The notes under the pieces: generated by a model | Databases searched by the model: none | Told to the model about the DNA's origin: nothing | The model's input: only the letters and a program-made list of their open reading frames with translations | Shown here: in pieces, positions 1,444 through 2,869 of the stretch | Layout of the letters: each line of letters starts with the position of its first letter | Position numbering within the stretch: the first letter of the stretch is position 1 | NCBI GenBank assembly: GCA_018263115.1 | Contig: JADFDC010000006.1 | Location: 1-64,000 of the forward strand | Length of the DNA: 64,000 nt | Direction: 5' to 3' | From: Thiobacillus sp. | GTDB taxonomy: Bacteria > Pseudomonadota > Gammaproteobacteria > Burkholderiales > Thiobacillaceae | Position numbers and translations under genes: made by a program

Positions 1444-2869
1444 ATTCTTCCTTGGCCTGGATTTCGGCACCTCTGGCGCCCGGGCGGCAGTTCTGGACGA
1501 AGCCGGCCATTTGATATTTGAATTGCGTGCTGACTATGCCGACACGGCCAACCCTCAACCTTGGCGTCAGGCGCTTTTTGATCTGATCGGCGGATTGCCG
1601 GCGGAAATTCGCTGCGGGCTTTCCGCGCTGGCCATCGATGGCACTTCCGGCACCCTGCTGGCAACCGATTCACGGTTCGAACCTGTAAGCTCTGCCTTGC
1701 CTTACAACGATGGGCGGGCAGTTGAAGAATCCAAAGAAATCGCAGCGTTACTCCCCCCTTGTCAAAGGGGGTGGCCCGGAGGGCCGGGGGATTTTGTGGT
1801 CACAGTGGAATCCCCCACACCCCCCCTTTATCAAGGGGGGCCTGAAGATACCCCCTTGTCAAAGGGGGTGGTGAGCTTGCGAACCGGGGGATTTTCTACG
1901 GAAGGCGAAATCCCCCCTGCCCCCCCTTTATCAAGGGGGGTACCAAGCCCCTACGGTCCCACTTCGGGCCTTGCAAAGCGGTTATGGCTAGCCAGATATC
2001 TTCCCGTTGCAGCCTTCTGTTTTCATCAGGCCGACTGGCTGTTGGCACTGCTGACTGGCAAGCCTGGCATCACGGATTATCACAACGCGCTGAAGTCCGG
2101 CTACGACGTTGAAGCCATGCAATGGCCGGACTGGGTGACCCGGCTGCCTGGCGGGCACTGGCAGCAAACAGTTTTGACACCGGGAGAAGCAATCGGAACG
2201 GTCAGCCAGGAATCGGCGAAGCGCTTCGGCCTCAATCCTGCCTGCACCGTGCGCGCGGGCACCACGGACAGCATCGCGGCCTTCCTTGCCTCGGGCGCCA
2301 ATGCTCCCGGCGATGCGGTAACTTCATTGGGTACCACCCTGGTGTTGAAGTTGTTGTCGGAAACGCGCGTGGACGATTCAGCCAGCGGCGTTTATTCGCA
2401 TCGCTTTGGCAAGCTGTGGCTGGCAGGCGGCGCTTCCAACACCGGCGGCGGCGTGCTCAGACAGTTTTTCAGCAATGAAGAATTGATTGCTTTCTCAGCC
2501 AACATTGATCCGGATACGCCCAGCGGCCTCGATTACTACCCGCTCCCGAAACCCGGCGAACGCTTTCCCAGCAACGACCCGAATCTTGAGCCATGCATGG
2601 AACCGCGCCCGAAGGATGATGCGGCGTTTCTGCACGGCCTGCTGGAAGGCATGGCCAAAATTGAATCAAAGGGTTATCGCAAGCTGGAAGCGCTGGGCGC
2701 AAGCCCGCTCAAGCGGGTCCTGACCGCAGGCGGCGGCGCGCAAAACGAAACCTGGCAGCGCATTCGGCAAAACTTGCTGGGCGTTCCTGTGACCGCTGCA
2801 ATCCATGCGGAGGCCGCCCATGGCACGGCACAACTGGCGAGGCTTGGTAAGAACCTGTTACCCGTCTGA
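1436..2869 (+). CDS. FGGY-family carbohydrate kinase (D-ribulokinase-like) with an internal repeat insertion
   Basis: FGGY kinases phosphorylate sugars such as ribulose, xylulose or glycerol. The N-terminal ATPase motif [12 protein letters not shown] and the later DGTSGT, GTTDS and AGGGAQN motifs identify the family. The sequence resembles the cyanobacterial/plant D-ribulokinase branch, but the substrate is inference. I prefer the GTG at 1436, close to where family homology begins; a TTG at 1415 in the same frame is an alternative. The protein is 477 residues from this start. About 63 of them (roughly residues 106-168, rich in Pro and Gly) come from a GC-palindromic repeat at 1751-1940 that keeps the frame open. 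It lies between [16 protein letters not shown] and SGLAKRLWL, which are normally close together, so activity may be altered. It overlaps queF and the convergent gene downstream. Confidence 0.85.
1751..1940. repeat. Two-unit palindromic repeat (about 90 bp each) inside a coding region
   Basis: Two similar units occupy 1751-1840 and 1851-1940. Each starts with a small palindrome of C and G runs around TTGTCAAA. Each then has a GGGGGATTTT arm and a matching AAATCCCCC arm, and ends in CCCCCCTTTATCAAGGGGGG. The two copies of the last 20-base motif are exactly 100 bases apart. The structure looks like a miniature mobile or REP-like element of the kind seen scattered between proteobacterial genes. 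Here it sits within a kinase gene without a stop codon. No transposase is nearby. Confidence 0.85.

Follow-up and report, generated by a model that had tools for sequence, protein, structure and literature searches.

Palindromic repeats inserted in frame in a carbohydrate kinase gene of Thiobacillus sp. and their possible connection to DUF559 nucleases

Results

The kinase gene and its insert

An FGGY carbohydrate kinase gene occupies positions 1436–2869 of the plus strand in the 64,000-nucleotide stretch of Thiobacillus sp. DNA analyzed here (the window), as identified from its open reading frame, Pfam and PDB searches, and a structure model, with the GTG start read from the sequence. This start overlaps the stop of an upstream open reading frame at 1024–1443 (overlap 1436–1443), suggesting coupled translation of the kinase with the upstream gene, which we take to be queF. 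The kinase frame continues without a stop through all four palindromes found within it (1753–1771, 1822–1840, 1851–1871, and 1922–1940), and Pfam recognized FGGY_C (1e-14) and FGGY_N (2e-7) in its translation, in agreement with a preliminary description that had placed C/G-run palindromes in frame within an FGGY kinase gene.

The insert lies in the region 1745–1954 (plus strand), where 70 codons separate the conserved EIA and GPTSG motifs compared to 4 codons in seven congeners. The net gain is 66 codons (198 nt) and not the approximately 63 residues of the preliminary description, which was correct in reporting added residues and two units but not in calling the units near-identical; the palindromes form two direct units of approximately 100 nt with an identity of 73% over 74 nt. 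Four half-units can be distinguished between 1753 and 1940. Half-unit A' no. 1 (1753–1793, minus strand) consists of AATCCCCC, the 13-nt hairpin GGCCCTCCGGGCC, and the palindrome CCCCCTTTGACAAGGGGGG, as read on the minus strand, and is followed by half-unit B no. 1 (1809–1840, plus strand), in which a short link joins AATCCCCC to the palindrome CCCCCTTTATCAAGGGGGG. The arrangement recurs with A' no. 2 (1851–1893, minus strand), consisting of AATCCCCC, the 16-nt hairpin GGTTCGCAAGCTCACC, and the palindrome CCCCCTTTGACAAGGGGG, again read on the minus strand, and with B no. 2 (1909–1940, plus strand), consisting of AATCCCCC, the short link, and CCCCCTTTATCAAGGGGGG. The layout of the insert is A'-15-B-10-A'-15-B, two outward pairs. 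In each copy, the palindromes of the two half-units point outward and the GGGGGATTT / AATCCCCC ends point inward, 15 nt apart. The hairpins of the two copies belong to different subclasses, each of which resembles other copies in the genome, and this makes the earlier proposal of local duplication after insertion, at least of recent date, unlikely.

Both A' half-units bear the minor core TTTGACAA, and TTTGAC is found in 7 of the 57 half-units parsed in the genome. As read from the sequence, the common core would introduce stop codons in the frame of the first copy, so that a filter against stops is visible. When folded as single-stranded DNA, each of the two kinase units performed better than all 200 of its shuffled versions (z −4.1 and −4.5). 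Inspection for a target-site duplication was confined to the borders of the kinase insert, where no clear one was seen.

A kinase match was found in 39 of the 61 genomes searched, this number including the window's own genome, and in seven of eight congeners, the exception being G005 (75% complete). The alignment took in the 29 relatives with a listed locus, and the insert is missing from all 29, seven of them congeners. Another scan, partly of the same genomes, covered 80 further kinase loci and revealed no insert of at least 15 residues at the site occupied in the window. The empty sites anticipated in relatives are thus present, and nothing in these loci indicates that the stretch is a conserved domain shared with other genera.

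Condition of the kinase

The PDB match of the kinase was 5htn (E 3e-107), and its closest solved relatives are SePSK from Synechococcus elongatus and AtXK-1 from Arabidopsis. Judged from its sequence, the kinase is a relative of these proteins, with a predicted assignment to the D-ribulose kinase type. D-ribulose kinase activity is reported for SePSK, as is the importance of its residues D8, T11, and D221 (PMC4880283). The aligned residues of the window kinase (D9, T12, and D278) are invariant across 55 sequences. Compared to SePSK and AtXK-1, the window kinase shares the predicted fold and the catalytic residues, but differs in carrying the net 66-residue insert, predicted to be disordered, between the parts aligned to PDB chain residues 99 and 116.

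An AlphaFold2 model based on the 55 sequences has a mean pLDDT of 87.8, with 382 of 477 residues at 90 or above, and is nearest to 5htp/5htn (TM 0.92–0.93 by target length). A pLDDT below 50 is found only at residues 112–157 and 163–170, which lie between two helices, so that long predicted disorder is confined to the insert. According to this model, the kinase appears to tolerate a loop of mobile-element origin, as had been suggested earlier. The dN/dS of the window kinase against seven congeners is 0.12–0.23, similar to the 0.10–0.30 obtained between congeners; these values, like those given below for trpC, recJ, and mutL, are pairwise, with dS often above 1 and the time since insertion not isolated. 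Given the low dN/dS, the retention of catalytic residues, and the confidently predicted fold around a disordered loop, the kinase looks functional and not decaying, and the protein would be active despite the loop. The alternative raised in the preliminary description, a gene on its way to becoming a pseudogene, was rejected based on the dN/dS values and the conserved catalytic residues.

The palindrome family in the genome

The pattern CCCYTTNNNNAARGGG has 60 matches per strand in the 2.35-Mb genome of the window and a reversed control has none, indicating that the palindromes are not a product of chance. We determined the anatomy of the family from 36 clusters in 24 stretches of the genome, using a half-unit pattern that parsed 57 half-units and misses degenerate ones. 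In a half-unit, AATCCCCC precedes the palindrome, the most frequent form of which is CCCCCTTTATCAAGGGGG; between the two lies a short link in type B or a hairpin of approximately 11–17 nt in type A. The pairs formed by neighboring half-units are inward in 16 cases (gaps mostly 8–12 nt), tandem in 7, and outward in 4, the last with gaps of 14, 15, 15, and 389 nt, the 389-nt gap containing a nuclease gene. Because inward pairs outnumber outward pairs, the outward pair is an uncertain candidate for the true mobile unit. On average, 4.9 of the six frames of a half-unit are open, compared to 4.4 for shuffled letters.

The family has no fixed GTAG or CGTC tag. GTAG followed the palindrome within 8 nt in 5 of the 57 half-units and preceded the unit in 1 of 57, and CGTC followed the palindrome in 1 of 57 and preceded the unit in 0 of 57. 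A search for the Y1 (RAYT) transposase family PF01797 gave no match in the window's genome, which is 96% complete, and gave matches in 5 of 14 control genomes. The palindromes are frequent in the window's genome (G000) and, among its congeners, frequent in G005, rare in G006, and represented by 0–1 matches in the other six.

Insertions in other genes

Eleven of the 36 clusters are spanned by an open frame that extends 40 codons or more beyond the cluster in both directions. The Pfam scan of these spanning frames took in all except L057, L058, and L065; it recognized no family in L046, L049, and L060, and the genes recognized were five: the kinase, trpC, recJ, an MmeI-like methylase, and mutL. 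Since four genes besides the kinase carry the palindrome family in frame, an assembly artefact appears an unlikely source of the kinase insert.

In trpC, 16 of the 18 aligned relatives have no such insert at site 1, one of the 16 (G037) having a short unrelated extension. The trpC of the window's genome (L048, 541–1560) contains a second in-frame insert, which belongs to the CCCTCTCCCC repeat family and precedes the conserved VVTESGI motif. The trpC of G005 has inserts of the CCCTCTCCCC type at both sites, and in that of G004 site 1 is occupied, in frame, by an entire DUF559 domain. The recJ site is free in 16 of 17 aligned relatives, the exception being G006, in which an identical 40-nt repeat is found in the same loop as in the window's genome, at a slightly offset position. 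We considered a shared ancestral insert and found it doubtful, because the repeat is identical although the dS of the gene is 0.94, and because G003, which is nearer to G006 by recJ distance, is free of the insert. Parallel insertion or conversion fits the two repeats better than shared ancestry.

The linker of mutL contains a window-type palindrome in both the window's genome and G005. This linker is variable among relatives, and that of G008 (L170) encodes a PLPSREGGEG-like peptide that resembles a further insert of repeat origin; for these reasons the comparison shows no clean free site in mutL. Two contigs of G005 (L181, which is G005:C55, and G005:C12) end inside the palindromic insert of mutL, raising the possibility that such inserts are under-reported in draft genomes.

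Purifying selection is indicated by sequence comparison for all the host genes compared (kinase, trpC, recJ, and mutL), with dN/dS of 0.107 for trpC (G000/G005), 0.207 for recJ (G000/G006), and 0.092 for the N-terminal half of mutL (G000/G005). In-frame insertion into unrelated genes that are free of the insert in their orthologs is observed for the kinase, trpC site 1, and recJ.

DUF559 nucleases and their flanking repeats

The window's genome contains two DUF559 genes. One of these (C41:8584–8943) is enclosed by outward half-units of the window's palindrome family at distances of 11 and 18 nt, and lies inside a 37-bp exact inverted flank that holds the palindrome. The short copies of the family thus share inverted ends with a nuclease-bearing copy, a relationship also seen in MITEs. 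This copy is the only nuclease-bearing one of the family found in the genome and is outside any recognized gene. The second DUF559 gene, near trpC, has another type of repeat beside it.

We examined the flanks of DUF559 genes in three sample sets. The class set comprises 30 loci with homologs of the C41 nuclease, from among the matches listed (85 of 369 genomes of the class had a match), and was analyzed with 350-nt flanks. The family set comprises 36 loci, 30 of them returned by a family search in which 51 of 117 genomes had a match and 6 drawn from 9 further loci, and was analyzed with 300-nt flanks. For the third set, 12 plasmid records were chosen from 31 matches (Gammaproteobacteria, Alphaproteobacteria, Deinococcota, and Cyanobacteriota). 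L213–L215, the three weaker of 14 loci, were excluded from the flank counts, and because L220 and L231 are the same place, the class and family sets together contain 65 distinct loci.

The two flanks shared an exact inverted match of 12 bp or more at 11 of 30 class loci compared to 0 of 24 distal windows, at 28 of 36 family-set loci compared to 0 of 31 distal windows, and in 7 of 12 plasmid records compared to 0 of 12; loci without such a match numbered 19, 8, and 5, respectively. Controls in which flanks of different loci were paired gave inverted matches in 8 of 120 cases for the class set and 46 of 150 for the family set, because repeat families and GC runs are common to several genomes. 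A window-type palindrome is present within 300 nt of DUF559 at 22 of the 65 loci (distal windows, 2 of 53), and an arm of the CCCTCTCCC type, for which the pattern was written after the loci had been seen and the distal windows serve as control, at 51 of 65 (distal windows, 4 of 53). One or the other type of GC-run repeat is found within this distance at 62 of 65 loci. At locus L242, a near-copy of the window's A unit is found on either side of the nuclease gene, and at L207 (G004:C91) the DUF559 gene that precedes sdhE lies between the arms of an exact inverted repeat of 119 bp.

The distribution among congeners is uneven. Four (G001, G002, G003, and G007) have neither DUF559 nor palindromes. 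G004 and G008 have DUF559 genes and yet only 0–1 palindromes of the window's family, and the palindrome-rich G005 (75% complete) has one DUF559 gene, which is associated with the other type of repeat. These observations argue against a simple story of one nuclease.

A profile of 63 DUF559 sequences matched the PDB entries 3hrl and 3r3p, the latter named 'Mobile intron protein' (E 3e-4), other hits being weaker (above 0.01). Residues E29, D56, H73, and D82 are invariant in the 63 sequences. The profile match indicates that DUF559 is related to the mobile-intron endonuclease 3r3p, which we take to be I-Bth0305I, a homing endonuclease belonging to the EDxHD/Vsr group. Homing endonucleases of the EDxHD/Vsr type are mentioned in PMC12350094, and PMC12907096 concerns a Vsr-like protein, VsrA of Caulobacter.

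At 20 of the 65 loci, DUF559 is in frame with a recognizable gene, host gene and nuclease forming one open frame. The family set accounts for 16 cases in its 36 loci, confirmed by Pfam for 12 and by reading of the translation for four ygiQ cases; names such as ygiQ, cobT, bioA, and selD are our reading of Pfam families and sequences. In ygiQ-type radical SAM genes, DUF559 is found at the same position in six genomes from five genera. The other hosts in this set are trpC (2), sdhE (2, N-terminal), cobT, recG, bioA, hsdR, and two methylase-type genes. In the class set, four of the 30 loci have such hosts, these being a type III-like methylase, selD (C-terminal), hsdS, and hsdM. We also considered that these might be intron or intein insertions, and found neither; no intein family is among the Pfam matches of 16 DUF559 reading frames, and Rfam at its gathering score gave 0 matches to intron RNA at 14 DUF559 loci.

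Discussion

In-frame palindromic inserts are already known. The Rickettsia palindromic elements (RPE) are repeats of approximately 150 bp found in frame in unrelated genes (PMC10969869), and a CGTC tag is reported for the RPE sequences of R. conorii (PMC3733652). The palindromes of the window are likewise in frame in unrelated genes, but they belong to another lineage, lack a fixed CGTC tag, and have a nuclease-bearing version. They also resemble GTAG REPs and REPINs, short palindromes that occur as singles, pairs, and clusters and sometimes within genes; intragenic REPs are described for several species, many of them lying in genes for replication and repair; REPtrons are not always present, and CGTC REPs apparently have no dedicated transposase (PMC3733652). 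The window's family differs from the REPIN-RAYT systems in the lack of a fixed GTAG tag and of a Y1 transposase match in the genome. The resemblance to MITEs is that short copies share their ends with a longer gene-bearing copy, but the gene carried is a DUF559 nuclease, not a transposase, and the kinase borders have no clear target duplication. With EDxHD/Vsr-type homing endonucleases the system shares the profile match to 3r3p and the position of nuclease genes within conserved genes; it differs in that no intein or intron was detected and that host and nuclease share one frame. In a literature search on DUF559/PF04480, homing, and palindromic in-frame elements, which had most subscription journals outside its scope, no title connected DUF559 with repeats of this kind or with insertion in frame. 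The connection to a nuclease appears new. What is probably novel is the mover, a putative homing-like DUF559 nuclease, with its palindromic ends, when left alone, forming loops in host proteins such as that of the kinase.

We consider it probable, with considerable reservation, that the kinase stretch represents two copies, acquired separately and lacking a nuclease, of a homing-like selfish element with palindromic ends, and that they are tolerated as a loop. In this model, copies of the element inserted into the kinase gene and would have survived because they kept the frame, contained no stop, and lay at a loop position. The DUF559 nuclease would cut target DNA, and repair of the cut would copy the element in, causing it to spread; the short palindrome-only copies would be non-autonomous derivatives of a nuclease-bearing element. 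Support for the model comes from the C41 nuclease gene, which is enclosed by the same outward arrangement as the kinase copies, and from the observation that DUF559 genes of other bacteria are often accompanied by inverted GC-run repeats. Mobility, the order of events, and the activity of the protein are inferred. Whether the element exemplifies a widespread and undescribed selfish class seems to us evenly balanced. Such a class would consist of DUF559 genes between inverted GC-run palindromes that invade conserved genes in frame and require no splicing, nuclease and palindromes being translated within the host protein, and its palindrome-only derivatives, the two in the kinase included, would litter the genome.

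An ordinary family of intragenic REPs could also account for the kinase insert, if a transposase, of the RAYT type or another, mobilized the repeats and has since disappeared or is encoded in sequence absent from the assembly, and if DUF559 landed among the repeats by chance. The precedents for intragenic REPs and missing REPtrons cited above are in keeping with this, and recJ and mutL are hit here too, but we regard the explanation as unlikely in view of the Y1 search of the 96%-complete genome, the rarity of either tag near the palindrome ends, the DUF559 gene located 11–18 nt from half-units in the window's genome, and the pairing of DUF559 with inverted repeats in three sample sets. That the kinase is instead a decaying gene accumulating repeats is very improbable; the 66 additional residues and their predicted disorder would suit a decaying gene, but the open frame, invariant catalytic residues, and dN/dS would not, and the same palindrome family is found in trpC, recJ, and mutL. 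We give just as little credence to domestication of the insert as a loop with a function in the kinase, such as the binding of a partner. The frame is preserved, and other repeats are found in frame in two cyanobacterial members of the kinase family, but the loop is predicted to be disordered, is found in one species only among the aligned relatives and the 80 further loci, and has similar peptides in unrelated proteins.

The recurrence of inserts in the same loops of trpC (site 1), recJ, and ygiQ bears on a narrower question, since it might reflect survival at permissive sites or shared descent with no targeting by a nuclease. This is a substantial possibility, though one to which we give less than even weight. 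Selection alone would favor loops, and trpC site 1 is common to inserts of different repeat families; weighing on the other side is the presence of DUF559 at one and the same position of ygiQ in six genomes from five genera, for which shared descent is itself possible.

If the proposal of a DUF559-borne selfish element is correct, then the question of what moves these palindromes becomes directly testable, and a kind of mobile DNA exists that needs no splicing, its insertion being simply translated. It also carries a warning for annotation, since mobile inserts may be behind DUF559 'fusions' and behind the SPxPxGRG or PPLxxGG loops of housekeeping proteins.

Additional irregularities were observed among the orthologs of the kinase. 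One ortholog (L221, G029:C148) contains a different in-frame insert of approximately 200 nt with CAGCCTGTC... inverted ends, which adjoins a kinase motif. Two cyanobacterial orthologs (L112 and L119) contain other in-frame repeat inserts, encoding PPLTRGG... and PSPIGRG..., in different loops. In the Okeania sp. kinase (L118), an apparent partial second copy of the kinase start, which is not a palindrome, lies upstream of the intact gene.
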